Below are positions 18,951-64,000 of a DNA stretch of 64,000 nt, piece after piece. Where the stretch lies: contig OZ021732.1 of assembly GCA_963978545.1 (NCBI GenBank), positions 67,160,328 to 67,224,327 on the forward strand, written 5' to 3'. Below the pieces are notes generated by a model. The model did no database searches and was not told where the DNA came from. It worked only from the letters and a program-made list of their open reading frames with translations. This DNA is from Linyphia triangularis (Eukaryota; Arthropoda; Arachnida; Araneae; Linyphiidae). A program made the position numbers and the translations under genes. Positions within the stretch are counted from its first letter, which is position 1. Each line of letters begins with the position of its first letter.

Positions 18951-19130
18951 GCCGACCAAACGGTATAGTGGTTAGCGTGCTAGCTTCTGGACCGCGAGGA
19001 TGCGGGTTCGAGTCCCGTGTTAGGCATGGGTGTTTGTAAATGTATGTTGGCTTGTCTATAATGACGAGTTTTTCGGCGCATTATAGCCCTCGTGTTGCTG
19101 ACGGCGCCAGATAATCTAAAAACAACCAAC
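18951..19130 (+). repeat. tRNA-derived SINE (family A), complete
   Basis: The body is flanked by a 12-bp duplication TAAGCAATCTTA (18939-18950 and 19131-19142). The head is tRNA-like, with a TAGTGGTTAGCG A box and GGTTCGAGTCC B box, so it carries an internal RNA polymerase III promoter. The tail includes GGCGCATTATAGCCC and TGACGGCGCCAGATAATCT and ends in AACAACCAAC. Copies on the minus strand lie at 26344-26490 and 42241-42363. Confidence 0.85.
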
Positions 19131-19447
19131 TAAGCAATCTTAAATGAGCAGGCTGCACGGATCCACTAGTCATGAAATAAATGTAATTTAAATTTTCAGA
19201 AATTTTTTATTTTTTAAACATGCTTATTTCTCAAAAAGTTAACTGGGGAATTGTTATACGGCTTATATCTTGGGTCACGGACCTCGTTAAACCTCACGGA
19301 TTGTAAAGGGTTGTCGAACTCTGGTCAGAACAGAAAATCACAAGGCAACCGATTCATTTGGGAAACTAATCACAAAACCAAATAATTAAGTTCCCCCTTT
19401 TCCATTTACCATCGAGCGAAACCATGTAATCGTTATTCTTTCTTTGT

Positions 19448-26294: not shown

Positions 26295-26702
26295 GAGAAC
26301 TAGAAATGGAAAACGACCGAAGTCCAAAAAAGTAAATATTTCAGGTTGGTTGTTTTCAGATTATCTGGCGCCGTCAGCAACACGAGGGCTATGATGCGCC
26401 AAAAAATTCGTCATTTGACAAGCCAACATACATTTACAAACACCTATGCCTTAAACGGGACTCAAACCCGCAACCTCTCGGTCTAGTATTTTTTTTTTTT
26501 TTTTAGGAGAACCGAAAAATGATCGCATCTGGTACTTAATCAATAAGTACATACTTCAGATTGAATTTGAACTTTTGCTAAGGGAGTTCGCACTTTGAGC
26601 GTTCTCCACTTCGTTTAGCGTGGCCTTTAGGACATTTTTCCGTAAAAAAAAAAAGATTTTCTATTTTTTTGGTACTTAGGTCGTTTTCAATTTTTAGTCC
26701 TC
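26295..26702. mobile_element. MITE with AATT target duplication, carrying a SINE
   Basis: The ends GAGAACTAGAAATGGAAAAC and, inverted, GAGGACTAAAAATTGAAAAC form imperfect inverted repeats of about 37 bp. Both flanks are AATT (26291-26294 and 26703-26706). The homologous site near 150-156 has a single AATT and no insert, so the boundaries are set by an empty site. Inside is a truncated minus-strand family A SINE (26344-26490). Without it the MITE would be about 260 bp. Confidence 0.75.
26344..26490 (-). repeat. tRNA-derived SINE (family A), truncated
   Basis: This reads GGTTGGTTGTTTTCAG, then AGATTATCTGGCGCCGTCAG and GGGACTCAAACCCGC on the plus strand, the reverse of 18951-19130. It stops shortly past the B box, so the A-box part of the tRNA-like head is missing. 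Confidence 0.75.
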
Positions 26703-27345
26703 AATTATTCATTCACTGTAGAGAATTTGTGGATATTGATACTTGTGCAACAGTACGGGGTACGGGAGATATGTTTATATTTAATTTCATTTAGAAGCTG
26801 TCATTGACGATATCAACTTAAATGTTCCTGCAAAAAAAGGATATATTTACACCAATTTAAAATTGCCGACCGCCAACTTGGGCTGAATTGTGATCAGGAT
26901 TTTTTAATACTATTGATGATATTAATTATTTATATCTTTTTCTATTCAATATGTTTTAAAACATCCATCACTTTGGTTCTTTTAAAGGAATTGATGAAAT
27001 TTTGGAAATTTGTTGTATGCCGTATTTCTTTTCTAAAAACTTTGACGGGATGAGATAATGATTGATTGATTTGTGTTCGCAAAATTCCTATTATATTTGT
27101 GTATGCAGTCCATCAATGTATACGGGAAAATAATAGACTTCTAGTGTAAAAATGCCAATTTGTGAAACTCGGGTCGGTATTTTTAATATTTTTTGTTTTT
27201 ATCTATATTTTTTTTATTCAATTCGATTTTATTGTGGATCAACTTTATAAAAGGGCTCGATAAAATTTCGAAAATTTGCCGACTGTTCAACTTTCTAAAA
27301 CTTTGGGGGGGTGAGACGCCCCCTTCGCGTCGTCCCTGGCTACAC

Positions 27346-42226: not shown

Positions 42227-42240
42227 GGATAAGGTTTTGA

Positions 42241-42363
42241 TTGGTTGGTTGGTTGTTTTCAGATTATCTGGCGCCGTCAGCAACACAAGGGCTATAATGC
42301 GCCGAAACATTCGTCATTAGACAAGCCATACATTTACAAACACCCATGCCATACACGGGACTC
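42241..42363 (-). repeat. tRNA-derived SINE (family A), 5'-truncated
   Basis: The body is flanked by a 14-bp duplication GGATAAGGTTTTGA (42227-42240 and 42364-42377). It matches the reverse of 18951-19130 from the AACC-type tail to the B-box region, then stops at CGGGACTC, so the tRNA-like head is mostly missing. Confidence 0.85.
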
Positions 42364-43039
42364 GGATAAGGTTTTGAAGAAGTATGAACACTTCAAATTT
42401 TGTGTTGTCAAATGGAAAGACATAAAAAGCATATAAACTTCACTTTTCTGCATCCAAGTATTCCCAATTTTACAATTGGAGTTTTTTTCAAAAAGATGTA
42501 ATATAGGACGGTACATTTGGCAATTTTTCTTTTTTTCATTTGGCGTTTAAAAAATTCGTCAAAATTAAAAAAACAGTAACGGAAGTAAAATTAAAATATA
42601 AATAATAAACTAAATTAAAAAAAAACTTTCCCATACGGGGATTGACAGAAACAGCTTTTATCTGGAAAAAAATGCCAAATAAAATCGCTCCAAAGAAATG
42701 TCCAATACTATATCTATACCAGTTTTTCTTTCATTCTTTTTATTTGAATGAGTTTTTTTATTTTAAGAGATATGTATGTTTTCTTTCATTCATTTAACTG
42801 AACTATAAACTCTATATTAGTTATAATAAAACAGCTTTTGTAATCTAAAAATTATACGTTTAACCTTTATTATTTCTTCATCCATTTTGTTGAGACTTTT
42901 TGAAGAAAGCAAAAATACTATTCACATTTAGAATATTTAGAATAACTTCCTTATTTTTATAGTAAAAAAAAATCTCCGCCGAAAAAAAAAGTTAATGCTT
43001 TTGTTCTATGCTTTTGTTTACAAGAAAAATTACACTCTA

Positions 43040-44151
43040 CAGTTACAGTTAAGTTCCTTTCACATCTGTGGTGGTGGGGGATCTCCAAGCAAACGAAAAT
43101 TGAACAGGAGAATGGGGGGAATTAAACCCCTATCTCCGTATACATATAAGAACCACAATCAAACAAAAAGGGAAAAAACCTAACCCTTAAGGGAAAAATT
43201 GGAGTAAGGTTCGACCTAAACAAGGGGATGAGAAATTTTGACTGGTAATCAGACTTTTGACACCAAACATTGATGGAAGAGAAGAAACCAGTTTTGAGAG
43301 ATGAAAACGTTGTGACGAGAATCTAACAAAATAAAGTATTTTATGCAAGATATCTTCAAATTTATTGTATGATGGACCCATAGGGGAGTCAGCTAAACCA
43401 ATTTTATGGAGCAAGCCTTTCAGAAGGAAAAGGCCCCTAAGAATCCTTAATCCTTAGGATTTTTACCTCCAGATGTCTGGATGCAGTCCAGTCGTAATAG
43501 GGAGGGGGATCGATTTGGATGTTAAATGACGAAAAGTATTTCGAAGATTCCCAACTCTGATAAAAATCAACAGATATTTCCTTTCTGATGAAAATTTTAA
43601 TGTCTTTCTAGACGAGAATAGCAATAGAGGGACAAAAAGAATCACCCGAAGCATTGCGAGCAAGGAGATCAGCTCTTTCGTTAAGATTGATATCTGCATA
43701 CGCATTGCACCACATAAGAACAATGGGGGATTGAGACGCTTTCCTTATTGAAAGATTACGGGTCTCAGAAACGAGAGAACCAGCTTCCCTTATCAAATTT
43801 TATAGCCTCATTACTCCCTCACTGTCTGAAAAGATCACTGTCGGACCGTCTACCAATAAAAATTTCGCCAGGTAATAAATTTTCGCCAATTCCGCTGTGA
43901 AGATGGACACATCAGGTATACGAACTGAACGAGATATAGAGTAATCGTGATTGGTAATGCCAAAACCTACTCCAGTTTGACATTTGGAGCCATCTGTAGC
44001 CCAAAATGCAAAGTCCTTATACTTCTCTCGAATCAAGCGGAAGAGAGAATTGATTAATTGCGGAACTTTGTTCACATAATTAGGGAAGAAATTCACAATA
44101 AATCCAGTTGGTGGGTTTGGGAAAGATGTGGGGAGAGATTGGAATAAACTA
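43040..44151 (-). pseudogene. LINE ORF2 fragment 4: RNase H and C-terminus
   Basis: This is the last piece of an interrupted LINE. On the minus strand a frame from 44096 carries an RNase H start (FWATDGSKCQTGVGFGI, FTAELAKIYYLA, VIFSDSEGV). A shifted frame continues WCNAYADINLNERADLLARN. The tail near 43414-43187 reads KIGLADSP and DILHKILYF, a Cys-poor decayed ORF2 end. Several frameshifts and stops make it inactive. Its upstream edge (44150-44151, TA) is the insertion site of the first 4.8-kb element. The LINE sequence continues at 48956 on the other side. The left limit, about 43040, is a guess at the 3' UTR end. Confidence 0.8.
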
Positions 44152-44286
44152 CCCAGGTAGCACAGCAGTATTGGCCAATGTCGGAAACCGGAGCTCTGGA
44201 AGATTGGCCAATCCTGGGTAATGTCGGAACGGCCAGCACCGAACGGCTAACATTTTTGCAATATTGGCCAATATCGCAGGGCGGTC

Positions 44287-44491
44287 TTGGCCGATCTCGA
44301 GGAGCAGTTTTGGCCGATATCGATGCGTAGTTTTGGCCGATCTCGAGGAGCAGTTTTGGCCGATATCGATGCGTAGTTTTGGCCGATATCGAGGAGCAGT
44401 TTTGGCCGATCTCGATGCGTAGTTTTGGTCGATATCGAGTAGTAGTTTTGGCCAGTATTGATGTGCAATCTTGGGCAATATCGATGAGCAT
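44287..44491. repeat. 23-bp subterminal tandem array, nine units (copy 1)
   Basis: The units read TTTTGGCCGATATCGA plus TGCGTAG, or TTTTGGCCGATCTCGA plus GGAGCAG. Two diverged units (TTTTGGCCAGTATTGATG, TCTTGGGCAATATCGATG) close the inner side. Because 23 is not a multiple of three, all three minus frames stay open and give overlapping repetitive peptides, which are not real proteins. Confidence 0.92.
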
Positions 44492-46209
44492 GGTTTAAAC
44501 CAAATGTTTTTTGTTTTTTTAAGAATAATTTAAAATTGTATTTTTATTTATAATTAGATTTTTTTAATTATTTGATGTTGTAAATTACTTCTATTTTTAG
44601 CTGAAATAAAATATGTTCTAATGTCTAAATAAAATATTAAAATTTAATATGATTTGAATGTCCCCATAAGTAGAACAATTGTTTTTTTACTTAGTTCAAA
44701 TTGCTTTCAAAATGAATATTCATTGTTATTTGAGCATAAATTATTCTTGTTTATGTCAAATTTTATTTATAAATATGTATACAAGTAATTAGAAAAGGAT
44801 AAAAAAAAAAAAAAAAAAAAAAAACTTGGTTTAAACCAAAAAAAACATGGTTTTTTTCCAAACCTGGATGAGCAGTTTTAGCCACTACTATGAGCAATTT
44901 TTGGAACCGCTACTGTTTTTTCACTATATCACAGAGCATTTTGGATAGATTTGCTACTCAACATATCTGAACTTTCTTTTTGGTGGAAGGAGTGGTTGCA
45001 AATGATAATTCTTATATGCGTTTAGATTCAATTTTGAGCTGTTCAATGTTTAGTATCACATTGTTGCCCAAAAACCCTTAATAATCTGTTAAGTTATACT
45101 TAAACATTTGTAAAATAATGTTTTCACCTCTCCTACCAAAAAAAAACACATTTAGATAACAAAATGTCTGATATTCAAGGATTTAGAAAGATACATGCAG
45201 TTTTAAACTAGAAAACTGCCAGTAGAATTTAAATAGGTCAGGAAAACTGCCAGTATAGGTCAATCAATACTCATTGAACTTTTTATGCTAAGGTTTCATA
45301 AAAATAGAAGGTTGAATTTAAAACTTGTGAAGTATATTTTTTATGCACAGATCAATTTCATTTATGAAGTCACTTTTCATTTTTAAAACATCATTTTTCT
45401 CCATACATTAAGAATCGAATAGATAGTAAATAAATCTCATTTTAATGCCTTTAGTTCATTCACTTCAAATGTAATAGCAATAAAGTGAATTAAAATTGCA
45501 GATCCCCCCCCCAACATTGAAAAAGTTTTCATCTAAAAATTATTTGACAAAAACATTATTTTTAAAAATCCACAATAATATTTACATGTATACCTCATAT
45601 AATGAATACTTTCATTTCTATTTTAATTGCTTTTTGGTGACCGATAATTGATATTTTATGGCTTAAAAACCATGCACACTTAAATTAAAGGTCACTTTCT
45701 GCAGTGCATATATATAATAAAAACATAAATTTAATACAAGCTGTTTATTATAATACATATTTTATTTTACATATTTTATCTTCCTTTGAAGTTTCCACCT
45801 CGGTGAAGAAAACAAACCTGAAATATAAAATTGTTCATTTCTGTTTTAATTAAGATTACATTAAAATTTAAAAATCAAATTATTGCCTCAAACTTTTTCT
45901 AGTCTTTAGCTCTTTTTATTTTATCCAAACTCTTTTTGTAACGGAACTGCAATTTGTTGTCAATAAAAGAAATCATGCAATGCAGCATTTACTGCCAATA
46001 AAGAAAAACAGAATTGCAAAATGAAAAACAGAATTTTGCACGAAAGCATAAGATTGTTAACATTTTGTAAAATTTTTACATCAGAAATCATTTTCTACTA
46101 ACATTTAAGAAAATCATTCTAAACTGGTATTTGAATTTCAATCGCATACATTTGCACCAACCTCAAACAAGCACACCAAAAAACTATGAATTGTGAAATA
46201 AATACTAGA

Positions 46210-46240
<31 letters not shown>

Positions 46241-46660
46241 AACTCGTTCATTTTTCCTTAGCCGTTTAAAATTTTAATAAATAATTTATAAGAGAGAAAA
46301 ATCTCTTTTAAACTGTTAAATTAACCACCAAATAAATTCAAAATAAATAGTAAAAAGTGTTGTTGAAAAGTCTGAGATAAAATATAAAATACACTGTTGC
46401 ACTTGAAAAGTTATAGGAACTAATTTAGAACATAGTGTTTTTGTTGTTTTTTCTTCTGAACTAATTTCTCAATTATAAGCATATGACAAAGGTGATTTGT
46501 ACAAAATTGTTTAAAGAAACAGATCACTTTTTTTTTTTTTTGAAAGACCTGAGATTCTCCATTGCTAATTTTTATTTTAAAATATAAATTATTGTAACAT
46601 CAAATCGAAATTGCTTGGAGCATTACCTAATTGATTGTCATATAATCTTACCTGGCAGAG
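44492..46660. other. AT-rich interior of TIR element copy 1
   Basis: No gene was recognised except a short exon-like end at about 45785-45820 (minus strand: acceptor TTTATATTTCAG, then a short frame reaching TAA among AATAAA signals). GGTTTAAACC palindromes occur at about 44492 and 44828. Long A and T runs and a C-run near 45505 are shared with the other copies. Confidence 0.5.
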
Positions 46661-46667
46661 AAAGTTT

Positions 46668-46798
46668 TCACGCTTTTTGGTTTACAAATAAGTTTTTGGG
46701 CTGGAATATGAGTATGGCTTTTCTGTGTTAATAAATTTTCATCTTCTGAAGAATCACTCCCAATGCTAGATATTGAACGAGTAAGCTCAGCTTTATCT
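46668..46798 (-). pseudogene. Exon-like segment of TIR element copy 1 (acidic Ser-rich)
   Basis: On the minus strand AACAGGCATAAG precedes ELTRSISSIGSDSSEDENLL and a Lys-rich continuation that stays open to the donor CTGCCAG/GTAAGA. Copies 2, 3 and 4 carry the same segment, with about 45 more bases in the middle and a stop just before the donor. In copy 1 that part is deleted, so the frame runs through. It looks like a decayed coding exon, perhaps from an element gene. I cannot name the protein. Confidence 0.4.
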
Positions 46799-47193
46799 TA
46801 TGCCTGTTAAAAGGAATCTAAATAGGAAAATTATGGATATATGCTATCTCAAACTAGTTGCAAAACTTTATATACAATTTATTTATACAATTAAATATCT
46901 TATTTAAAGCACTTTTAATATAACTCACTAAAAAACCAATCTTCAGTTTGAGAAATTAAAATAGAATATTATTTAAATCTGTTAATAAATATCTGTTATT
47001 CATGTCCACCATTTCAAAAATCTACACCATCAAAACTTGAACTGATAAGTAGATCAATGACTTATGAAACATTATTTGTGATACCTTGAATTATTTGTAT
47101 ATACCCTATACAAAAATTGTAATTTAATTACTGTATGTACAATAGATTTTAAAATTAAATGTTTGCCATGTTATACTTGAGGGCATATATTCT

Positions 47194-47340
47194 TTAATCA
47201 TGTTCATTCCCCCCTTCCCCATTTGTTGCAAACTTCCAAAGACAACTTTTGTCTGAGATGAACCAAGATGAAGGAATTACTTCTACGGGTTCTCCATTTC
47301 CATCAATGAACCCTACAACAGTATATTTCTTTATTTTAAA
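47194..47340 (-). pseudogene. Exon-like segment resembling DUF4806 N-terminus (copy 1)
   Basis: After the acceptor TTCTGTTCAG a 48-codon frame reads KKYTVVGFIDGNGEPVEVIP then SSWFISDKSCLWKF. The pattern (aromatic, T/A, VV, F, D, then VEV, I/V-P, W, then C and W) is like the start of DUF4806-type proteins, which are multi-copy in arthropods. In copy 2 the same frame has TAG after the final Trp, copy 3 lost one base, and copy 4 stays open with conservative changes. The rest of such a protein was not found. Resemblance is from memory of the family and needs a profile search. Confidence 0.4.
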
Positions 47341-47696
47341 CTGAACAGAATAACAAATTAACTATTGAAAGGCCATACTGGCATTTTACTGCCAAGGGAA
47401 GGAAGGCTACAACTATTACACTTTTCATTCCAAGACAGAAAATAGCACTAACAATAATACTTGATTACAATATTTGATGTTTACTTTTCAAATGGAAAGT
47501 CTTTTCTTTAAATGAACAAAACATTTTTATTTTATAAAAACAACATCTTTGCATAGTGTGTTTAAATTAACCCAAATGAAGTTAGGCATTCAAAATATAT
47601 TTTTATAGATATTTCAAAAATTTCCATTCATTGCTCTTTTCTGAGAAATCAGTAATTGCACAAGACAGACCTTTTAAATAGGAGAATGTACATATA

Positions 47697-47863
47697 CAGT
47701 AAAACCCTGTTAACGCTAAGTCAATCTGGCCACTGAAATTGTTCGCTTTAACCGAATTTTGTGTTAAATATATTAACGTTAAGTTTTAAGTACGGAGAAC
47801 TGATTTTCCTTCGCATTAAATGTGATTTTATGCTAAGCAATTTTGCGTTAACAGGGTTTGCTG
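47697..47863. mobile_element. pogo/Tigger-like MITE inside TIR element copy 1
   Basis: The ends CAGTAAAACCCTGTTAACGC and GCGTTAACAGGG..GCTG are inverted, with TA on both sides. The 167-bp interior has no gene. The same insertion sits at the matching place in copy 2 (53028-53194), copy 3 (55674-55840, inverted) and copy 4 (63598-63768), so it entered before the element multiplied. Confidence 0.75.
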
Positions 47864-48539
47864 TATTTTTTCAAAAATAGGAGGCATAATAACATTAGTT
47901 ATACATATTGTTAAAATTGACATTTTCTAGAACATTTACTTTTTATGCCAAGCGGTTGATTGAGATAATGCACCCTATTCCACACCACCTTTGAGATTGA
48001 GTAATAGACGTGTTTCAATTTAATGTGGTTTCCTCAATATGCCCAATTCACAATATATTCTATTAACAGAGCTAATCATGGAGCTTGGATATTGAATTTT
48101 ATAAGCAATATAAACTAACGATAACAAATATGATAAATAGGAAGACAAACTAGAATGTAACATGTAGTATAAGTATTTCAATGATGAGCATAATTTGAAA
48201 CAAGCAATGGAGGGGTAGGGGGGAATGGCTAAATGAGTATTAGTTTGCATCCGTGTATGGATGAGATAAAAGCTGAAAATCTTCTTTATATTTTAAACAG
48301 CAGCATTAAATAAATAATTGAAACCAACTCGATTCCTAATCAAGTTTAATGTGAATATCAATCACCTTTGTCAACATCGCTTTTGTAGATCAAACCAAGT
48401 CGGCAATCAAGTATCGTTGAAATTAACTAAAACCAACTTAAACCAATAATGTAATACGTAGATACCCCATGAAATCGACAAATTATTGTGACAACACTTA
48501 CCAGTAATAAGTTTTCGATCCAATTTTAATGTTACTAAT

Positions 48540-48724
48540 GACCGTCGCGCCGGCGACATAACATAAATAAACTTAGTAAACACACATCCGGGCACTTCAG
48601 TTCTTTCAGCCACTCGGTGGCGATTCTTTTTGAGAAATTCTACGCATCGTTTTAAATCGGATTCGGCCAGTTTTGGCCGTAAGTCGAGATCGTTCCAAAA
48701 TACATGATTTTTTAAAAAATGCTT
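48540..48724 (-). pseudogene. Exon-like segment A of TIR element copy 1
   Basis: The minus strand carries FLKKNRHRVAERTEVPGCVF then TKFIYVMSPARRSLVTLKLD, ending at the donor ATTACTG/GTAAGT near 48500. A base change upstream breaks the link to the ATG that is open in copy 2. The segment is GC-richer than its surroundings. The protein was not recognised. Confidence 0.4.
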
Positions 48725-48955
48725 AAAACCGTGGCAAAAATATCACAAAACATATTAATGCAAACCTTCCTTTCTTATACATAAAATATTTTAATTTTAA
48801 AACTGTCGATCAACCTTTCAAACTTTTGAGTATCGTCTATCCAATATTGGGCGAGATTGGGCAATATCGGCATCGAACGGCCGATTTTGCGCCATTCCAC
48901 ATCGGGATTGGCCAATGTAGGGCTGATATTGGCCAATACTGCTGTGCTACTTGGG

Positions 48956-49290
48956 TAGGTTATCTCGAAATCTGAAAAGAGATTCGACCGACTTAACGGT
49001 AGGTTCAATTGAATGACTTCTAAGGGCCGATTCGAAATAACAGCTTGGAGGTAGTTGATAAAGATATCTAATGGAAAAAGAAACCTGGGCCGACTTTGCA
49101 CAGAGGCGATAAGGAGGGACATTTGCCACTTTGTAGATAACACCATTAGGAGCACATTTAAGGACTCCGAGGGCAAAACGAATTGCGGCTTTTTCTAAGA
49201 TTTCATACTTTTTGAAGTTGAAGATGCTATCCCTCAATCTCACCGCATTTGCAAAATCTAGATGGGGAAGCAGGACTTGAGAAACAACTT
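48956..49290 (-). pseudogene. LINE ORF2 fragment 3 (between RT and RNase H)
   Basis: This is LINE sequence between element copies 1 and 2. The minus frame reads VVSQVLLPHLDFANAVRLRD, then ALGVLKCAPNGVIYKVANVP and SLFRFRDNL. It is the connector region common after the RT of LINEs with an RNase H end. Removing the flanking elements and one copy of each 2-bp duplication keeps the frame continuous with 54291 on one side and 44151 on the other. Confidence 0.8.
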
Positions 49291-49426
49291 CCCAGGTAGC
49301 ACAGCAGTATTGGCCAATGTCGGAAACCGGAGCTCTGGAAGATTGGCCAATCCTGGGTAATGTCGGAACGGCCAGCACCGAACGGCTAACATTTTTGCAA
49401 TATTGGCCAATATCGCAGTGCGGTTT

Positions 49427-49610
49427 TGGCCGATCTCGAGGAGCAGTTTTGGCCGATATCGATACGTAGTTTTGGCCGATCTCGATGCGTAGTTTTGGCC
49501 GATATCGATGCGTAGTTTTGGCCGATATCGATGCGTAGTTTTGGCCGATCTCGAGGAGTAGTTTTGGCCAGTATTGATGTGCAATCTTGGGCAATAACGA
49601 TGAGCATTGG
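49427..49610. repeat. 23-bp subterminal tandem array, eight units (copy 2)
   Basis: Same unit as in copy 1, with eight repeats in a different order of the TGCGTAG and GGAGCAG variants. The overlapping minus-strand frames across it are artefacts of the 23-bp period. Confidence 0.9.
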
Positions 49611-51960
49611 TTTAAACCAAATGTTTTTCTTTTCCCTCAGAAAAACGAAATATTTTTTTTTAAAGAATAATTTAAAATTGTATTTTTATATATAATTAGA
49701 TTTTTTAAATTATTTGATGTTGTAGATGACTTCTATTTTTAGCTGAAATACAATATGTTCTAATGTATTTTAAAATAAATCTTCCAATTAAAAACTATTG
49801 AAGTTTTTATAAGTATCAAATGAATCGAAGAGCAATATTCTATGTATTATGTAGTAAACAATTACTATTGTATATATTGAATTTAAAAAATAGTACCTCT
49901 AAATAAAATATTAAAATTTAATGATTTAAATGTCCCCATAAATAGCAACAATTGTTTATTTACTTAGTTCAAATTACTTTCAAAAGGAATATTCATTGTT
50001 TATAAAACATAAATTATTCTTGTTTATGCTAAATTTTATTTATAAATATGTATACATGTAATTAGAAAAGGATAAAAAAAAAGACCTCTGTTTAAACCAA
50101 AAAAACATGTTTTTTTCCAACCCTGAAAGAGCAATTTTAGCTACTATTTTTTTATTATATCACAGAGCAGTTTAGGGTAGATTTGCCACTCAACATATCT
50201 GAACTTTCTTTTTAGTGGAAGAAGTGGTTGCAAATGATAATTCTTATATGCGTTTAGATTCAATTTTGAGCTGTTCAATGTTTAGTAACACATTGTTGCC
50301 CAAAAACCCTTAATAATTTGTTAAGTTATACTTAAACATTTGTAAAATAATGTTTTCAACTCCCCTACCAAAAAAAACAACATTTAGATAACAAAATGTC
50401 TGACATTCAAGGATTTAGAAAGATACATGCAGTTTTAAACTAGAAAACTAACAGTAGAATTTAAAATCCCTATTGGTCAATCAATACTCATTGAACTTTT
50501 TATGCTAAGGTTTCATAAAAATAGAAGGTTGAATTTTAAACTTGTGAAGTATATTTTTTCTGCACCGATCAACTTCATTTATGAAGTCCTTTTTCATTTT
50601 TAAAACATAATTTTTCTCTATGCATTAAGAATCAAATAGATAGTAAATAAATCTCATTTTAATGCTTTAGTTCATTCACTTCAATCATAATATTGTAAAA
50701 GCAATAAAGTGAATTAAATGGCAGACCCCCCCCCCCCCCTCCCCATTGAAAAAGTTTTCTCATCCAAAAATTATTTGACAAAAACATCTATTATTTTAAA
50801 AAATCCACAATAATATTTACATGAATACCTCGTATAATGAATAATTTTTCATACTTTCATTCCTATTTTAATTGATTTTTAATGACCGATAATTGAAACC
50901 CAATATAATTTAATTGATATTTTATGGCTTAAAAACCATGCACTCTTAAATTAATTGTCACTTTCTGCAGTGCATATTTATAATAAAAACATAAATTTAA
51001 TACAAGCTGTTTATTATAATACATATTTTATTTTACATATTTTATCTTCCTTTGAAGTTTCTACCTCGGCGAAGAAAACGAACCTGAAATATAAAATTAT
51101 TCATTTCTGTTTTCATTAAGATTACATTAAAATTTAAAAATCAAATTATTGCATCAAACTTTTTCTAGTCTTTAGCTCTTTTTATTTTATCCAAACTCTT
51201 TTTGTTACGGAACTGGAATTTGTTATCAATAAAAGAAATCATGCAGTGCAGCATTTACTGCCCATTAAAAAAAAAAAAAAAAAATTGCAAAATGAAAAAC
51301 ACAATTTTGCACAAAAGCATAAGATTATTAACATTTTGTTAAATTGTTATATCAGAAAACATTTTCTACTAACATTTAAGAAAATAATTTTAAACTGGTA
51401 TTTAAATTTCAATTGTATATACTGAGCTTGTATGAATTTAATTTATATAAAGTTCTCTGCAAATACGTTTGCACCAACCTCAACCAAGCACACAAAAAAA
51501 CTATCAATCACGAAATAAATGCTAATTCTGTTTTTTTTTATAAACTCGTTCATTTTTCTTTAGCCGTTTAAAATTGTAATAAATAATTTATAAGAGAGAA
51601 AAATCTCTTTTAAACTGTTAAATTAACCACCAAATAAAATCAAAATAAATAGTAAAAAGTGTTGTTGAAAAGTCTGTGATAAAATACACTGTTGCACTTG
51701 AAAAGTTATAGGAACTAATTTAGAACATAGTGTTTTTGTTGTTTTTTCTACTGAACTAATTTCTCAATTATAAGCATATGACAAAGGTGATTTGTTCAAA
51801 ATTGTTTAAAGAAACAGATAATTTTTTTTTTATTTGAAAGACCAGAGATTCTCCATTGCTTATTATATTTTAAAATATAAATTATTGTAACATCAAATTG
51901 AAATTGCTTGGATCGTTACCTAATTGATTATCATATATTCTTACCTGGTAGAGGAAGTTT

Positions 51961-54039
51961 TCACGCTTTTTGGTTCACAAACAAGTTTTTGCTCGTTTTT
52001 TTGTGGGATTCCAAAGAAGGGGGATCGTCTTTGAAATGGGCTGGAATATTAGTTCGGCTTTTCTTGGTTAATAAATTTTCATCTTCTGAAGAATCACTCC
52101 CAATTGAACGAGCAAGCTCAGCTTTATCTTATGCCTGTTAAAATGAATCTAAATAGGAAAATTATGGATATATGCTATCTCAAACTAGTTGCAAAACTTT
52201 ATATACAATTTATTTATACAATTAAATATCTTATTTAAAGCACTTTTAATATAACTTACTAAAAAACCAATCTTCAGTTTGAGAAATTAAAATAGAATAT
52301 TATTTAAATCTGTTAATAAATATCTGTTATTCATGTCCACCACTTCAAAAATCTACACCATCAAAACTTGAACTGATAAGTAGATCAATGACTTATGAAA
52401 CATTATTTGTGATACCTTGAATTATTTGTATATACTCTATACAAAAATTGTAATTTAATTACTGTATGTACAATAGATTTTAAAATTAAATGTTTGCCAT
52501 GTTATACTTGAGGGCATATATTCTTTAATCATGTTCATTCCCCCCTTCCCCATTTGTTGCAAACTACCAAAGACAACTTTTGTCTGAGATGAACCAAGAT
52601 GAAGGAATTACTTCTACGGGTTCTCCATTTCCATCAATGAACCCTACAACAGTATATTTCTTTATTTTAAACTGAACAGAATAACAAATTAACTATTGAA
52701 AGGCCATACTGGCATTTTACTGCCAAGGGAAGGAAGGCTACAACTATTACACTTTTCATTCCAAGACAGAAAATAGCACTAACAATAATACTTGATTACA
52801 ATATTTGATGTTTACTTTTCAAATGGAAAGTCTTTTCTTTAAATGAACAAAACATTTTTATTTTATAAAAACAACATCTTTGCATAGTATGTTTAAATTA
52901 ACACAAATGAAGTTAGGCATTCAAAATATATTTTTGTAGATATTTCAAAAATTTCCATTCATTGCTCTTTTCTGAGAAATCAATAATTGCACAAGACAGA
53001 CCTTTTAAATAGGAGAATGTACATATACAGTAAAACCCTGTTAACGCTAAGTCGATCTGGCCACTGAAATTGTTCGCTTTAACCGAATTTTGTGTTAAAT
53101 AAATTAACGTTAAGTTTTAAGTACGGAGAACTGCTTTTCCTTTGCATTAAATGTGATTTTATGCTAAGCAATTTTGCGTTAACAGGGTTTGCTGTATTTT
53201 TTCAAAAATAGGAGGCATAATAACATTAGTTATACATATTGTTAAAATTGACATTTTCTAGAACATTTACTTTTTATGCCAAGCGGTTGATTGAGATAAT
53301 GCACCCTATTCCACACCACCTTTGAGATTGAGTAATAGACGTGTTTTAATTTAATGTGGTTTCCTCAATATGCCCAATTCACAATATATTCTATTAACAG
53401 AGCTAATCATGGAGCTTGGATATTGAATTTTATAAGCAATATAAACTAACGATAACAAATATGATAAATAGGAAGACAAACTAGAATGTAACATGTAGTA
53501 TAAGTATATTTCAATGATGAGCATAATTTGAAACAAGCAATGGAGGGGTAGGGGGGAATGGCTAAATGAGTATTAGTTTGCATCCGTGTATGGATGAGAT
53601 AAAAGCTGAAAATCTTGTTTATATTTTAAACAGCAGCATTAAATAAATAATTGAAACCAACTCGATTCCTAATCAAGTTTAATGTGAATATCAATCACCT
53701 TTGTCAACATCGCTTTTGTAGATCAAACCAAGTCGGCAATCAAGTATCGTTGAAATTAACTAAAACCAACTTAAACCAATAATGTAATACGTAGATACCC
53801 CATGAAATCGACAAATTATTGTGACAACACTTACCAGTAATAAGTTTTCGATCCAATTTTAATGTTACTAATGACCGTCGCGCCGGCGACATAACATAAA
53901 TAAACTTAGTAAACACACATCCGGGCACTTCAGTTCCTTCAGCCACTCGGTGGCGATTCTTTTTGAGAAATTCTGCGCATCGTTTTAATATCGCATTCGG
54001 CCAGTTTTGGCCGTAAGTCGAGATCGTTCCAAAATACAT
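51961..54039 (-). CDS. Putative two-exon ORF of TIR element (copy 2)
   Basis: On the minus strand an ATG at 54039 opens exon A (54039-53835), which ends at a strong donor ACTG/GTAAGT in phase 1. An acceptor CATAAG at 52129-52128 opens exon C (52127-51945), whose first two bases complete the codon. Joined they would encode about 123 residues: MYFGTISTYGQNWPNAILKR, then a basic stretch, then ARSIGSDSSEDENLLTKKSR and a polar Lys-rich end with a TGA at 51963-51961. A further donor follows. The product was not recognised and is not a known transposase. Copies are so alike that conservation alone does not prove coding, and a nearer AG in the acceptor would break the frame. Confidence 0.35.
53028..53194. 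mobile_element. pogo/Tigger-like MITE in TIR element copy 2
   Basis: Same 167-bp insertion as at 47697, with TA flanks, differing at a few bases. Confidence 0.75.
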
Positions 54040-54289
54040 GATTTTTTAAAAAATGCTTAAAACCGTGGCAAAAATATCACAAAACATATTAATGCAAACC
54101 TTCCTTTCTTATACATAAAATATTTTAATTTTAAAACTGTCGATCAACCTTTCAAACTTTTGAGTATCGTCTATCCAATATTGGGCGAGATTGGGCAATA
54201 TCGGCATCGAACGGCCGATTTTGCGCCATTCCACATCGGGATTGGCCAATGTAGGGCTGATATTGGCCAATACTGCTGTGCTACTTGGG

Positions 54290-54591
54290 TTGGAGGATAT
54301 TCTGGGATTTAAGTCCCGTGCTTTTGTAGCTAATAAATTTGATAACATTCAAGAATTTGCTCCCTTTGATACAACTTAATAACCCATGTTCTTTCCAACG
54401 GAAGTTAAATTGTAAAAGAAGGCCAAGGATTTTTGTGTGAGGGACCCAAGGTATGCAAACTCCGTCAAGTAGGATAGGAGCTTTAATTTTAGATCTTTTC
54501 GGAGAGATGTCCAAAAAAAAAGATTTCTCTTGAGAAAAAGTTACTTTCCAATTCTTTGCCTAGGTATCTACCTTACCCAAAGTGTCATTAA
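54290..54591 (-). pseudogene. LINE ORF2 fragment 2 (downstream of RT catalytic box)
   Basis: LINE sequence between element copies 2 and 3. The minus strand reads AKNWKVTFSQEKSFF, then DISPKRSKIKAPILLDGV and TKILGLLLQFNFRWKEH, the region after the YADD box in LINE reverse transcriptases (the thumb-proximal VTFSQEKS-type motif). A TAG replaces an expected Trp codon just upstream. The frame is continuous with 59521 onward across the copy 3 insertion. Confidence 0.82.
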
Positions 54592-55673
54592 CCCAAGTAG
54601 CACAGCAGTATTGGCCAATATCAGCCCTACATTGGCCAATCCCGATGTGGAATGGCGCAAAATCGGCCGTTCGATGCCGATATTGCCCAATCTCGCCCAA
54701 TATTGGATAGACGATACTCAAAAGTTTGAAAGGTTGATCGACAGTTTTAAAATTAAAATATTTTATGTATAAGAAAGGAAGGTTTGCATTAATATGTTTT
54801 GTGATATTTTTGCCACGGTTTTAAGCATTTTTTAAAAAATCATGTATTTTGGAACGATCTCGACTTACGGCCAAAACTGGCCGAATCCGATGCGCAGAAT
54901 TTCTCAAAAAGAATCGCCACCGAGTGGCTGAAAGAACTGAAGTGCCCGGATGTGTGTTTACTAAGTTTATTTATGTTATGTCGCCGGCGCGACGGTCATT
55001 AGTAACATTAAAATTGGATCGAAAACTTATTACTGGTAAGTGTTGTCACAATAATTTGTCGATTTCATGGGGTATTTACGTATTACATTATTGGTTTAAG
55101 TTGGTTTTAGTTAATTTCAACGATACTTGATTGCCGACTTGGTTTGATCTACAAAAGCGATGTTGACAAAGGTGATTGATATTCACATTAAACTTGATTA
55201 GGAATCGAGTTGGTTTCAATTATTTATTTAATGCTGCTGTTTAAAATATAAACAAGATTTTCAGCTTTTATCTCATCCATACACGGATGCAAACTAATAC
55301 TCATTTAGCCATTCCCCCCTACCCCTCCATTGCTTGTTTCAAATTATGCTCATCATTGAAATACTTATACTACATGTTACATTCTAGTTTGCCTTCCTAT
55401 TTATCATATTTGTTATCGTTAGTTTATATTGCTTATAAAATTCAATATCCAAGCTCCATGATTAGCTCTGTTAATAGAATATATTGTGAATTGGGCATAT
55501 TGAGGAAACCACATTAAATTAAAACACGTCTATTACTCAATCTCAAAGGTGGTGTGGAATAGGGTGCATTATCTCAATCAACCGCTTTGCATAAAAAGTA
55601 AATGTTCTAGAAAATGTCAATTTTAACAATATGTATAACTAATGTTGTTATGCTTCCTATTTTTGAAAAAATA

Positions 55674-55840
55674 CACCAAACCCTGTTAACGCAAAATTGC
55701 TTAGCATAAAATCAAATTTAATGCGAAGGAAAAGCAGTTCTCCGTACTTAAAACTTAACGTTAATTTATTTAACACAAAATTCGGTTAAAGCGAACAATT
55801 TCAGTGGCCAGATCGACTTAGCGTTAACAGGGTTTTACTG
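55674..55840. mobile_element. pogo/Tigger-like MITE in TIR element copy 3
   Basis: The same MITE, inverted with its host element. Its left end has drifted to CACCAAACCCTG. Confidence 0.72.
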
Positions 55841-56169
55841 TATATGTACATTCTCCTATTTAAAAGGTCTGTCTTGTGCAATTATTGATTTCTCAGAAAA
55901 GAGCAATGAATGGAAATTTTTGAAATATCTACAAAAATGTATTTTTAATGCCTAACTTCATTTGTGTTAATTTAAACACACTATGCAAAGATGTTGTTTT
56001 TATAAAATAAAAATGTTTTGTTCATTTAAAGAAAAGACTTTCCATTTGAAAAGTAAACATCAAATATTGTAATCAAGTATTATTGTTAGTGCTATTTTCT
56101 GTCTTGGAATGAAAAGTGTAATAGTTGTAGCCTTCCTTCCCTTGGCAGTAAAATGCCAGTATGGCCTTT

Positions 56170-56345
56170 CAATAGTTAATTTGTTATTCTGTTCAGTTTA
56201 AAATAAAGAAATATACTGTTGTAGGGTCATTGATGGAAATGGAGAACCCGTAGAAGTAATTCCTTCATCTTGGTTCATCTCAGACAAAAGTTGTCTTTGG
56301 TAGTTTGCAACAAATGGGGAAGGGGGGAATGAACATGATTAAAGA
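56170..56345 (+). pseudogene. DUF4806-like exon segment, frameshifted (copy 3)
   Basis: The same segment as 47194-47340, after acceptor TTCTGTTCAG, but one T is missing in GTAGGGTCATTG, which breaks the frame after KKYTVVG. It shows that the piece is decaying in this copy. Confidence 0.4.
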
Positions 56346-59249
56346 ATATATGCCCTCAAGTATAACATGCAAACATTTAATTTTAAAATCTATTGTAAAT
56401 ACAGTAATTAAATTACAATTTTTGTATAGGGTATATACAAATAATTCAAGGTATCACAAATAATGTTTCATAAGTCATTGATCTACTTATCAGTTCAAGT
56501 TTTGATGGTGTAGATTTTTGAAATGGTGGAAATGAATAACAGATATTTATTAACAGATTTAAATAATATTCTATTTTAATTTCTCAAACTGAAGATTGGT
56601 TTTTTAGTGAGTTATATTAAAAGTGCTTTAAATAAGATATTTAATTGTATAAATAAATTGTATATAAAGTTTTGCAACTAGTTTGAGATAGCATATATCC
56701 ATAATTTTCCTATTTAGATTCATTTTAACAGGCATAAGATAAAGCTGAGCTTGCTCGTTCAATTGGGAGTGATTCTTCAGAAGATGAAAATTTATTAACC
56801 AAGAAAAGCCGAACTAATATTCCAGCCCGTTTCAAAGACGATCCCCCTTCTTTGGAATCCCACAAAAAAACGAGCAAAAACTTGTTTGTGAACCAAAAAG
56901 CGTGAAAACTTCCTCTACCAGGTAAGAATATATGATAATCAATTTGGTAACGATCCAAGCAATTTCAATTTGATGTTACAATAATTTATATTTTAAAATA
57001 TAATAAGCAATGAAGAATCTCTGGTCTTTCAAATAAAAAAAAAATTATCTGTTTCTTTAAACAATTTTGAACAAATCACCTTTGTCATATGCTTATAATT
57101 GAAAAATTAGTTCAGTAGAAAAAACAACAAAAACACTATGTTCTAAATTAGTTCCTATAACTTTTCAAGTGCAACAGTGTATTTTATCACAGACTTTTCA
57201 ACAACACTTTTTACTATTTATTTTGATTTTATTTGGTGGTTAATTTAACAGTTTAAAAGAGATTTTTCTCTCTTATAAATTATTTATTACAATTTTAAAC
57301 GGCTAAAGAAAAATGAACGAGTTTATAAAAAAACAAACAGAATTAGCATTTATTTCGTGATTGATAGTTTTTTGTATGCTTGGTTGAGGTTGGTGCAAAC
57401 GTATTTGCAGAGAACTTTATATAAATTAAATTCATACAAGCTCAGTATATACGATTGAAATTTAAATACCAGTTTAAAATTATTTTCTTAAATGTTAGTA
57501 GAAAATGTTTTCTGATATAACAATTTAACAAAATGTTAATAATCTTATGCTTTTGTGCAAAATTGTGTTTTTCATTTTGCAATTTTTTTTATTTTTTAAT
57601 GGGCAGTAAATGCTGCACTGCATGATTTCTTTTATTGATAACAAATTCCAGTTCCTTAACAAAAAGAGTTTGGATAAAATAAAAAGAGCTAAAGACTAGA
57701 AAAAGTTTGATGCAATAATTTGATTTTTAAATTTTAATGTAATCTTAATGAAAACAGAAATGAATAATTTTATATTTCAGGTTCGTTTTCTTCGCCAAGG
57801 TAGAAACTTCAAAGGAAGATAAAATATGTAAAATAAAATATGTATTATAATAAACAGCTTGTATTAAATTTATGTTTTTATTATAAATATGCACTGCAGA
57901 AAGTGACAATTAATTTAAGAGTGCATGGTTTTTAAGCCATAAAATATCAATTAAATTATATTGGGTTTCAATTATCGGTCATTAAAAAGCAATTAAAATA
58001 GGAATGAAAGTATGAAAAATTATTCATTATACGAGGTATTCATGTAAATATTATTGTGGATTTTTTAAAATAATAGATGTTTTTGTCAAATAATTTTTGG
58101 ATGAAAACTTTTTCAATGGGGGGGGGGGGGGTCTGCAATTTAATTCACTTTATTGCTTTTACAATATTATGATTGAAGTGAATGAACTAAAGCATTAAAA
58201 TGAGATTTATTTACTATCTATTTGATTCTTAATGCATAGAGAAAAATTATGTTTTAAAAATGAAAAGGGACTTCATAAATGAAGTTGATCGGTGCAGAAA
58301 AAATATACTTCACAAGTTTAAAATTCAACCTTCTATTTTTATGAAACCTTAGCATAAAAAGTTCAATGAGTATTGATTGACCAATAGGGATTTTAAATTC
58401 TACTGTTAGTTTTCTAGTTTAAAATTGCATGTATCTTTCTAAATCCTTGAATGTCAGACATTTTGTTATCTAAATGTTGTTTTTTTGGTAGGGGAGTTGA
58501 AAACATTATTTTACAAATGTTTAAGTATAACTTAACAAATTATTAAGGGTTTTTGGGCAACAATGTGTTACTAAACATTGAACAGCTCAAAATTGAATCT
58601 AAACGCATATAAGAATTATCATTTGCAACCACTTCTTCCACTAAAAAGAAAGTTCAGATATGTTGAGTGGCAAATCTACCCTAAACTGCTCTGTGATATA
58701 ATAAAAAAATAGTAGCTAAAATTGCTCTTTCAGGGTTGGAAAAAAACATGTTTTTTTGGTTTAAACAGAGGTCTTTTTTTTATCCTTTTCTAATTACATG
58801 TATACATATTTATAAATAAAATTTAGCATAAACAAGAATAATTTATGTTTTATAAACAATGAATATTCCTTTTGAAAGTAATTTGAACTAAGTAAATAAA
58901 CAATTGTTGCTATTTATGGGGACATTCAAATCATATTAAATTTTAATATTTTATTTAGAGGTACTATTTTTTAAATTCAATATATACAATAGTAATTGTT
59001 TACTACATAATACATAGAATATTGCTCTTCGATTCATTTGATACTTATAAAAACTTCAATAGTTTTTAATTGGAAGATTTATTTTAAAATACATTAGAAC
59101 ATATTGTATTTCAGCTAAAAATAGAAGTCATCTACAACATCAAATAATTTAAAAAATCTAATTATAAATAAAAATACAATTTTAAATTATTCTTTAAAAA
59201 AAAATATTTCGTTTTTCTGAGGGAAAAGAAAAACATTTGGTTTAAACCA

Positions 59250-59395
59250 ATGCTCATCGATATTGCCCAAGATTGCACATCAATACTGGCCAAAACTACT
59301 CCTCGAGATCGGCCAAAACTACGCATCGATATCGGCCAAAACTACGCATCGATATCGGCCAAAACTGCTCCTCGAGATCGGCCAAAACCGCACTG
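59250..59395. repeat. 23-bp subterminal tandem array, six units (copy 3)
   Basis: Six units in inverted order relative to copies 1, 2 and 4. The plus-strand repetitive frames over it are artefacts. Confidence 0.9.
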
Positions 59396-59520
59396 CGATA
59401 TTGGCCAATATTGCAAAAATGTTAGCCGTTCGGTGCTGGCCGTTCTGACATTACCCAGGATTGGCCAATCTTCCAGAGCTCCGGTTTCCGACATTGGCCA
59501 ATACTGCTGTGCTACCTGGG

Positions 59521-60074
59521 AATGTTCTGGATGCAGTCATTTGGGGAAGAGCCAGTGATGACAATGCTAATATCATCCGCGTAAATGAAAGGAAAAGAGT
59601 TTGTGGGGATGTCATTAAAAAGATCATGAATACAAGCATTAAACAGTAATGGGGATAAAATGGAACCTTGAGGCAAACCTCTCCATTTGATCTGCACAGG
59701 TCAAGCAGTTAAAAAGTCCTGAATGAGCAATAATAGGTTTCTCTCCAGACCTGCTTCAAAAAGCTTGTGAGTCAAGCCTTCCACCCAAACCCCATCGTAC
59801 GCACCTTTGACATCTAAAGAAAGGATTACAACCCATTTTTTCTTAGACCGTTGAAAATGAATGATGTGAGTCAGCTTCTGTAAACAATCAACAGCAGAGT
59901 GACCAGGGATAAACCCGAACATATTTAGATGAAAAAGTTTATTCTTTTGCGCCCACCATGAAAGACGAGAAAGTATCAATCTCTCAAAGATTTTGCTAAT
60001 GATTAGGATAAGGGCAATTGGCCGAAAGCTAGAAGCTAGTTTCGCTGGTTTATTGGGTTTCTTAATAGGGACTA
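59521..60074 (-). pseudogene. LINE ORF2 fragment 1: reverse transcriptase
   Basis: The minus strand carries the RT palm: PIKKPNKPAKLASSFRPIAL, then ISKIFERLILSRL, VILSLDVKGAYDGVW (first catalytic Asp), GLPQGSILSPLLFNACIHDL, and FPFIYADDISIVI (YADD box). A TGA at about 59700 separates two frames. With RNase H downstream this places the element in the RNase H-bearing I/Jockey-like LINEs. Sequence encoding the endonuclease would lie beyond copy 4, outside the window. Confidence 0.87.
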
Positions 60075-60204
60075 CCCAGGTAGCACAGCAGTATTGGCCA
60101 ATGTCGGAAACCGGAGCTCTGGAAGATTGGCCAATCCTGGGTAATGTCGGAACGGCCAGCACCGAACGGCTAACATTTTTGCAATATTGGCCAATATCGC
60201 AGTG

Positions 60205-60322
60205 CGGTTTTGGCCGATCTCGAGGAGCAGTTTTGGCCGATATCGAGGAGCAGTTTTGGCCGATATCGATGCGTAGTTTTGGCCAGTATTGATGTGCAAT
60301 CTTGGGCAATATCGATGAGCAT
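60205..60322. repeat. 23-bp subterminal tandem array, five units (copy 4)
   Basis: Five units, the shortest array of the four copies. It ends in the same two diverged inner units. Confidence 0.9.
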
Positions 60323-63300
60323 GGTTTAAACCAAATGTTTTTTTTTTTTTAAGAATAATTTAGAATTGTATTTTTATTTATAATTAGATTTTTTTAATTA
60401 TTTGATGTTGTAAATTACTTCTATTTTTAGCTGAAATAAAATATGTTCTAATGTCTAAATAAAATATTAAAATTTAATATGATTTGAATGTCCCTATAAG
60501 TAGAACAATTGTTTATTTACTTAGTTCAAATTGCTTTCAAAATGAATATTCATTGTTATTTGAGCATAAATTATTCTTGTTTAAGTCAAATTTTATTTAT
60601 AAATATGTATACATGTAATTAGAAAAGGATAAAAAAAAAACATGTTTTTTTTTCCAAACCTGGATGAGCAGTTTTAGCCACTACTATGAGCAATTTTTGG
60701 AACAGCTACTGTTTTTTCACTATATCACAGAGCATTTTGGATAGATTTGCCACTCAACATATCTGAACTTTCTTTTTGGTGGAAGGAGTGGTTGCAAATG
60801 ATAATTCTTATATGCGTTTAGATTCAATTTTGAGCTGTTCAATGTTTAGTATCACATTGTTGCCCCAAAACCCTTAATAATCTGTTAAGTTATACTTAAA
60901 CATTTGTAAAATAATGTTTTCACCTCTCCTACCAAAAAAAACAACACACATTTAGATAACAAAATGTCTGATATTCAAGGATTTAGAAAGATACATGCAA
61001 TTTTAAACTAGAAAACTGCCAGTAGAATTTAAAGTCCCTATAGGTCAATCAATACTCATTGAACTTTTTATGCTAAGGTTTCATAAAAATAGAAGGTTGA
61101 ATTTAAAACTTGTGAAGTATATTTTTTATGCACAGATCAATTTCATTTAAGAAGTCACTTTTCATTTTTAAAACATCATTTTTCTCCATACATTAAGAAT
61201 CGAATAGATAGTAAATAAATATCATTTTAATGCTTTAGTTCATTCACTTCAAATGTAATAGCAATAAAGTGAATTAAAATTGCAGATCCCCCCCCCCCCC
61301 CAACATTGAAAAAGTTTTCATCTAAAAATTATTTGACAAAAACATTATTTTTAAAAATCCACAATAATATTTACATGTATACCTCATATAATGAATACTT
61401 TTTTATACTTTCATTCCTATTTTAATTGCTTTTTGGTGACCGATAATTGAAACCCAATATAATTTAATTGATATTTTATGGCTTAAAAACCATGCACACT
61501 TAAATTAAAGGTCACTTTCTGCAGTGCATATATATAATAAAAACATAAATTTAATACAAGCTGTTTATTATAATACATATTTTATTTTACATATTTTATC
61601 TTCCTTTGAAGTTTCCACCTCGGTGAAGAAAACGAACCTGAAATATAAAATTGTTCATTTCTGTTTTAATTAAGATTACATTAAAATTTAAAAATCAAAT
61701 TATTGCCTCAAACTTTTTCTAGTCTTTAGCTCTTTTTATTTTATCCAAGCTCTTTTTGTAACGGAACTGCAATTTGTTGTCAATAAAAGAAATCATGCAA
61801 TGCAGCATTTACTGCCAATAAAGAAAAACAGAATTGCAAAATGAAAAACAGAATTTTGCACGAAAGCATAAGATTGTTAACATTTTGTAAAATTTTTACA
61901 TCAGAAATCATTTTCTACTAACATTTAAGAAAATCATTCTAAACTGGTATTTGAATTTCAATCGCATGCATTTGCACCAACCTCAAACAAGCACACAAAA
62001 AAACTATGATTTGTGAAATAAATGCTAATGCTTTTTTTTTTTTTTTTTTTTTTATAAACTCGTTCATTTTTCCTTAGCTGTTTAAAATTTTAATAAATAA
62101 TTTATAAGAGAGAAAAATCTCTTTTAAACTGTTAAATTAACCACCAAATAAATTCAAAATAAATAGTAAAAAGTGTTGTTGAAAAGTCTGAGATAAAATA
62201 TAAAATACACTGTTGCACTTGAAAAGTTGTAGGAACTAATTTAGAACATAGTGTTTTTGTTGTTTTTTCTTCTGAACTAATTTCTCAATTATAAGCATAT
62301 GACAAAGGTGATTTGTACAAAATTGTTTAAAGAAACAGATATTTTTTTTTTTTTTTTTTGAAAGACCAGAGATTCTCCATTGCTTATTTTTATTTTAAAA
62401 TATAAATTATTGTAACATCAAATCAAAATTGCTTGGAGCGTTACCTAATTGATATATTCTTATATATATATATTATCTTATATATATATTATTCACATAT
62501 ATTCTTACCTGGCAGAGAAAGTTTTCACCCTTTTTGGTTTACAAATAAGTTTTTGCTTGTTTCTTTGTGGGATTCCAAAGAAAGAGAATCATCTTTGAAA
62601 CGGGCTGGAATATGAGTATGGCTTTTCTGTGTTAATAAATTTTCATCTTCTGAAGAATCACTCCCAATGCTAGATATTGAACGGGCAAGCTCAGCTTTAT
62701 CTTATGCCTGTTAAAAGGAATCTAAATAGGAAAATTATGGATATATGCTATCTCAAACTAGTTGCAAAACTTCATATACAATTAAATATCTTACTTAGTG
62801 CACTTATAGTATCACTCACTAAAAAACCAATCTTCAGTTTGGGAAATTAAAATAGGATATTATTTAAATCTGTTAATAAATATCTGTTATTCATGTCCAC
62901 AATTTCAAAAATCTACACCATTAAAACTTGAATTGATAAGTAGATCAAAAACTTATGAAACAATATTTGTGATACCTTTAATTATTTGTATACCCTATAC
63001 AAAAATTGTAATTTACTTATTGTATGTACAATAGATTTTAAAATTAAATGTTTGCCATGTTGACTTGAGGGTATATATTCTTTAATCATGTAAATTCCCC
63101 CCCCCCCCTTCCCCATTCATTGCAAACTGCCAAAGACAACTTTTGTCCGAGATGAACCAAGATGAAGGAATTACTTCTATGGGTTCTCCATTTCCATCAA
63201 TGAACCCTACAACAGTATGTATCTTTATTTTAAACTGAACAGAATAACAAATTAACTATTGAAAGGCCATACTAGCATTTTACTGCCGAGGGAAGGAAGG

Positions 63301-63597
63301 CTACAACTATTACACTTTTCACCCCAAGACAGAAAATTGCACTATGAATAGCACTAACAATAATACTTGATTACAATATTTGTTTACTTTTCAAATGGAA
63401 AGTCTTTTCTTTAAATGAAAAAAACATTTTTATTTTATAAAAACAACATCTTTGCACAGTGTGTTTAGATTAACACAAAGGAAGCTAGGCATTCAAAATA
63501 TATTTTTGTAGATATTTCAAAAATTTGCATTCATTGCTCTTTTCTGAGTAATCAATAATTACACAAGACATACCTTTTAAATAGGGAAATGTACATA

Positions 63598-63768
63598 CAG
63601 TAAAACCCTGTTAACGCTAAGTCGATCTGGCCGCTGAAATTGTTTGCTTTAACCGAATTTTGTGTTAAACAAATAAATTAAAGTTAAGTTTTAAGTACGG
63701 AAAATCGCTTTTCCTTCGCATTAAATGTGATTTTATGTTAAGCAATTTTGCGTTAACAGGGTTTGCTG
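63598..63768. mobile_element. pogo/Tigger-like MITE in TIR element copy 4
   Basis: Same insertion, 171 bp, with a small internal gain (AACAAATAAATTAAAG) and TA flanks. Confidence 0.72.
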
Positions 63769-64000
63769 TATTTTTTTAAAAATAGGAGGCATAATTACAA
63801 TAGTTATACATATTGTTAAAATTGACATTTTTTAGAACAATCATTTACCTTTCATGCCAAGTGGTTGATTGAGATAATGTACCCTATTCCACACCACCTT
63901 TGAGATTGAGTAATAGGCGTGTTTTAATTTAATGTGGTTTCCTCAATATGTGCAATTCACAATATATTCTATTAACAGAGCTGCTAATCACGGAGCTTGG

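Follow-up and report, generated by a model that had tools for sequence, protein, structure and literature searches.

A decayed LINE interrupted by four copies of one DNA transposon in Linyphia triangularis

The interrupted LINE

Between about 43 and 64 kb of the window (the whole 64,000-nucleotide stretch of Linyphia triangularis DNA that was analysed), one decayed LINE is interrupted by four copies of one DNA transposon of ~4.9 kb, three in direct orientation and one (copy 3) inverted. On the minus strand, the ORF2 of the LINE is found as a piece running from the RT to just beyond the YADD box (60074-59521, matched by RVT_1), a piece with the end of the RT and the region following it (54591-54290), a connector (49290-48956), and a piece with RNase H and the decayed 3′ part (44151-43040, by RNase_H match and homolog alignment), the two middle pieces being assigned from the rejoined sequence and homolog alignment. 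The 3′ limit of the last piece was taken from the initial annotation; this piece, some 1.1 kb at the 3′ end of the visible LINE, has no insertion of the element. Between the LINE pieces lie copy 1 (44152-48955, plus strand, 4804 bp, complete), copy 2 (49291-54289, plus strand, 4999 bp, complete) and copy 3 (54592-59520, minus strand, 4929 bp, complete), followed by copy 4 (60075-64000, plus strand, at least 3926 bp), the right end of which is outside the window. Copy 1 was delimited by its 31-nt inverted ends and duplication, copies 2 and 3 by their ends and duplications, and copy 4 by its left end and flanking TA.

With the elements and one copy of each duplication removed, the insertion points are 552, 300 and 333 bp apart and span 1185 bp; the approximate spacings given by the initial annotation proved exact on recomputation, and its order and strand for the LINE pieces were confirmed by rejoining the sequence. 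The 2-bp duplications that it described are perfect in all three complete copies (TA/TA, TT/TT and AA/AA at copies 1, 2 and 3, respectively), and at copy 4 the left flank TA is the only one in the window. Three insertions are demonstrated in full and the fourth at one end, and we consider it almost certain that the array of four copies exists as described.

Each junction had also been said to close in frame, which applies to copies 3 and 2 and is not exact for copy 1. The rejoined frame is open through the copy-3 and copy-2 junctions, save for two stops within LINE sequence. At the copy-1 junction the same frame continues for 18 codons before a stop, RNase H lies one frame over, and the RNase H frame has a stop 3-5 bp ahead of the junction. 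These frames imply a one-base gain or loss located from ~3 bp before to ~56 bp after the junction, possibly not at the junction itself, and most simply caused by decay of the LINE.

In the rejoined LINE, RVT_1 is matched over residues 3-211 (E 1.8e-34), across the copy-3 junction at residue 184, and RNase_H is matched with an E-value of 0.0023 and a score under the curated cut-off, a match supported by the alignment of nine homologs. The order RT then RNase H is that of a LINE with RNase H; an N-terminal endonuclease domain would be expected beyond copy 4, outside the window. A search of ~5.8 billion proteins, in which 7749 candidates were scored, gave 168 matches at E ≤0.001; the best 10 of these 168 are 24-31% identical to the query, and seven of the ten span 99-100% of it. 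In the alignment with the nine homologs no gap falls at the copy-3 and copy-2 junctions (residues 184 and 284, respectively), two of the nine having an insertion ~5 residues before residue 184, whereas the alignment surrounding the third junction (copy 1, residue ~394) is variable and gapped. The LINE also lacks, relative to its homologs, ~12 residues immediately before the LPQG motif. Elsewhere in the window, a 273-aa ORF with RNase H (35473-36294) is identical to the RNase H of this LINE at 39 of 128 aligned positions and probably comes from a different LINE.

The transposon and its subfamilies

A 27-base end, CCCARGTAGCACAGCAGTATTGGCCAA, is present at seven ends with no mismatch in any of them, and a whole-window scan allowing up to 5 mismatches gave no further end. 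The ends begin CCCARG, with CCC at all seven in the window, and the terminal inverted repeats of copy 1 are 31 nt long and 94% complementary. No BLASTN match to copy 3 was obtained in 1-43500 of the window (E 0.001), and the exact terminal patterns gave no match in viral and prokaryotic contig collections, a negative of little weight given what these contain. Adjoining the left end of the element only is a subterminal array of 23-bp units with the core TTGGCCGATATCGA, located by Tandem Repeats Finder at 44264-44490 in copy 1 (plus strand, 9.9 units) and at 49403-49569, 59251-59415 and 60187-60321 in copies 2, 3 and 4 (7.3, 7.2 and 5.9 units, respectively), while the right end of copy 1 has merely scattered motifs related to the unit. 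Subterminal repeat arrays often bind transposase, and by analogy our guess is that the 23-bp array might be such a binding site. A short inverted-repeat unit with 18-nt arms (AAACCCTGTTAACGC...) occurs at 47702-47859 in copy 1 and at 63603-63764 in copy 4 and probably derives from an older MITE that had inserted into the element's ancestor; a stretch resembling it was noticed by eye in copy 3 (~55680-55835).

No transposase was found in six frames of each of the four copies (Pfam, E ≤1, stops read as X, copy 4 being incomplete), a scan that would miss a transposase unknown to Pfam. The only match in the 24 frames is WKF in copy 2 (E 0.11; score 12.8 bits, cut-off 25), only two ORFs of at least 150 aa occur in the elements, both running across LINE junctions, and Rfam gave no match at gathering scores in 42900-64000. 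Because there is neither a transposase domain nor a large internal ORF, a relative outside the window probably supplies the transposase in trans. A gene-like stretch in copy 3, with exon-like pieces marked by eye at ~54978-55037, 56220-56300 and 56738-56930, we took to resemble the N-terminus of DUF4806 proteins; the joined translation matched no Pfam family (E ≤1), none of four candidates was homologous at E 0.001, and we claim no such gene.

The element is of the non-autonomous TIR (cut-and-paste) DNA transposon type, although the features seen do not fix its superfamily. It is like other such transposons in its inverted ends, constant 2-bp duplication and want of a recognised coding domain, and unlike them in its one-sided 23-bp array and its length, 4.9 kb seeming long for an element without transposase. 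Topic searches of the literature, none of them by sequence, found no account of it. Tc1/mariner elements duplicate TA and are excluded by copy 2 (TT) and copy 3 (AA), and piggyBac and Kolobok, with their TTAA duplication, are excluded by the 2-bp duplications here. As the relevant passages of PMC4482050 describe them, ISL2EU elements (PHIS superfamily) form families in animals, duplicate 2 bp of A/T (AT within A|AT|T), usually have ends beginning GG, reach ~4840 bp in autonomous form and encode proteins with DDE, THAP and YqaJ domains. Compared with that description, the present element is alike in its 2-bp A/T duplication and similar length, but its duplications are TA, TT and AA, its ends are CCC, and no DDE, THAP or YqaJ Pfam match was obtained; ISL2EU was set aside on the duplications and ends. 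Spy, also of the PHIS superfamily and lacking a target duplication in the description consulted (PMC11304231), is excluded by the 2-bp duplications. The range of 2-4 bp that PMC4482050 gives in passing for CMC (CACTA, Mirage, Chapaev) includes the 2 bp seen here; the scans yielded neither an autonomous relative nor, in the copies, a transposase with which to compare.

Pairwise divergence separates two subfamilies ~6% apart, A (copy 4) and B (copies 2 and 3), a division new with respect to the initial annotation. Copies 2 and 3 differ from each other by 0.62% in the left part and by 0.85% in the right part to the end, and from copy 4 by 5.4-5.9%. Copy 1 is 1.9% away from copy 4 in its left part and 5.6% in its right part; its distance to copies 2 and 3 is 6.0-6.1% in the left part, and in the right part 0.8-1.0% when counted to the end or 1.0-1.3% when counted only to the limit of copy 4. 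Copy 1 is a mosaic with one breakpoint, A on the left and B on the right, also absent from the initial annotation. At 193 informative sites, where copy 2 equals copy 3 and differs from copy 4 and where copy 1 matches either base, 111 sites before the best breakpoint are of A type (the base of copy 4) and 18 of B type, against 1 and 63, respectively, after it, a single-breakpoint fit that none of 2000 shuffles equalled; the 18 B-type sites on the left are mostly changes private to copy 4, as expected. The breakpoint falls within 46726-46869, breaks at 46726-46780 or at 46813-46869 costing an equal 19 exceptions, and nine bases at ~46763 that copies 1 and 4 have in common and copies 2 and 3 lack favour the later side. 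The right parts have 11, 7 and 11 private differences in copies 1, 2 and 3, respectively (a star), so they are about equidistant and neither copy 2 nor copy 3 is singled out as donor. A crossover between copies, with deletion, is an unlikely origin of copy 1, as the LINE sequence is continuous across it and TA flanks it on both sides. The mosaic could be an old and widespread recombinant form.

Accounts of the cluster

Nesting of one transposable element in another is routine in repeat-rich genomes, and the present locus is like other nested elements in that one is interrupted by another; it is different in that a single family struck the same host element four times within 1.2 kb and never its own copies. 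A divergence of ~6% hardly arises in place among copies otherwise less than 2% apart, from which we infer that lineages A and B each reached the LINE, two being the minimum that the divergence calls for. Local hopping, which the initial annotation had offered among its explanations, is therefore rejected as sole cause, the A/B divergence (5.4-5.9% for copies 2 and 3 against copy 4, 0.6-0.9% for copy 2 against copy 3) ruling out a single founder. According to the sections of PMC3952818 that deal with these elements, Sleeping Beauty often re-inserts near its donor and, like piggyBac, is unprotected from self-insertion. Relative to that account, the cluster is similar in that copies of one family lie close together, and dissimilar in its two subfamilies ~6% apart and the absence of self-insertion.

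None of the copies is nested in another, though the copies gave more target DNA than the LINE did. If existing copies attracted new ones, insertions inside copies would be expected, and the earlier suggestion of a preference for sites near existing copies suffers from their absence. We modelled the three later insertions as uniform over the LINE and the earlier copies (whole copies, flanks ignored, post hoc), and the probability that no copy was hit is then 0.0016 by length for the 1185-bp core and 0.009 for 2.4 kb of LINE, or 0.0006 and 0.0045, respectively, when weighted by A/T dinucleotides, a span of ~0.0006-0.009 in these simple models. The LINE core has a higher G+C content (0.393) than the copies (0.285-0.299) and a lower density of A/T dinucleotides, so that an element simply drawn to A/T sites would be expected to land more often in the copies. 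The missing self-insertions argue against plain local insertion and towards a preference for the LINE or self-avoidance.

How surprising the cluster is depends on the number of independent events. When four insertions are placed at random in the window emptied of copies (45.3 kb), they are confined to 1185 bp or less in ~7.5e-5 of trials; the figure is post hoc, as the pattern was chosen for being striking. For assumed copy numbers and genome sizes and independent insertion, the expected number of four-hit clusters within 1185 bp is 0.0003 at 10,000 copies and 3.3 at 100,000 in 2 Gb, and 1.7 at 30,000 copies in 0.5 Gb; for pairs of arrivals that close together, chance would give 5.3 at an assumed 3,000 copies in 2 Gb. 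The initial annotation's wording that the hits are hard to explain by random insertion was thus too strong, two arrivals being sufficient if the close pairs are local hops, and chance combined with local re-insertion is viable because only two independent arrivals are required. That pure chance produced the cluster, in a family abundant enough for a few of its kind to be expected, we consider unlikely: the estimates at 100,000 copies in 2 Gb and 30,000 in 0.5 Gb would allow it, and the other 42.9 kb of the window, free of copies, is compatible with it (0.6 copies expected at 30,000 in 2 Gb and 2.1 at 100,000), but such copy numbers are very high for a 4.9-kb element and the lack of nesting is left unexplained.

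A real preference of the transposon for this LINE family, through some feature of sequence or chromatin that would make its copies hot spots genome-wide, would explain why both subfamilies arrived in one 1.2-kb stretch, why earlier copies were never hit, and why the first 43 kb of the window has no copy. We regard it as a possible but doubtful account, since it is drawn from one locus chosen for being striking, the only shared context is a weak AC-TW at three of four sites (three with both flanks and one with its left flank), the ACTW motif has a frequency of 13.5 per kb in the LINE against a higher 21.2 per kb in window 1-42900, and the final 1.1 kb of the visible LINE escaped insertion. Very improbable, in our judgement, is an assembly artefact in which copies or LINE pieces were misjoined through long near-identical repeats. 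The copies are indeed long and up to ~99% alike, the subfamily switches in the middle of copy 1 as it would at a misjoin (the assembly could have switched inside that copy), and the LINE frame shifts by one base at or soon after the copy-1 junction; against this, the LINE pieces are ordered and non-overlapping, the duplications match in all three testable copies, and two of the three junctions are ungapped in the homolog alignment.

We tentatively lean towards an account with two or more arrivals and short-range re-insertion, the dead LINE being tolerated and possibly favoured as a target, and with a later conversion or templated repair in copy 1. Each subfamily would have reached the LINE at least once, and re-insertion at short range probably then gave the pairs copy 4/copy 1 and copy 2/copy 3, a full-length relative elsewhere providing the transposase in trans. 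Gene conversion, or excision followed by templated gap repair, would later have replaced the right half of copy 1 with that of a B-type copy; the closest candidate donors are its neighbours, copies 2 and 3. The LINE would have served as a tolerated landing site, somehow favoured over the AT-rich body of the element itself, whether by local DNA composition, chromatin or self-avoidance. To judge from its decay, the LINE was presumably dead before the insertions. Copies 1 and 4, with their difference of 1.9%, may have arrived separately instead of forming a local pair, and the missing self-insertion speaks against the short-range re-insertion in this account too. A LINE or site preference is suggested by its fit to the arrivals of two subfamilies and the want of nesting, at one locus.

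As it stands, this is a single locus with a clear cluster of nested insertions and a tidy new example. It would be a bold and rather improbable extension that the family targets one LINE family, or a feature within it, and avoids its own copies, a safe-harbour strategy with dead retrotransposons acting as landing pads on which neighbours exchange sequence by conversion. Were its copies to prove enriched within one LINE family and scarce within one another, the family would offer natural target choice together with self-avoidance in a eukaryotic cut-and-paste element, and the mosaic copy 1, beside its possible donors, would be a test case for conversion or gap repair between neighbouring transposons.

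Other features of the window

A nearly complete BEL/Pao LTR retrotransposon occupies 3725-9757, with flanking repeats of ~297 bp that are 97.98% identical and ORFs matching DUF1759, RVT_1, Peptidase_A17, the H2C2 integrase zinc finger and DUF5641. The best named matches of its ORF at 6265-9441, which rank behind two unnamed proteins, are from the spiders Argiope, Uloborus and Araneus (48-55% identity), with an insect soon after (49%); none of them is close, and they make a spider host genome probable. Within 40560-40960 is a long CTT/CAT-rich stretch that resembles an acidic repeat on the minus strand, and its three minus frames have no Pfam match at E ≤1. Two diverged tandem-like repeat families each occur at two places, one at 12463-13731 and 18488-18816 and another at 16187-16966 and 32061-32239, and a direct repeat of ~650 bp pairs 150-804 with 26703-27328 at 83% identity. 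Three copies of a 120-144 bp repeat (18987-19139, 26344-26486 and 42239-42364) are ~90% identical and possibly represent a SINE or MITE.
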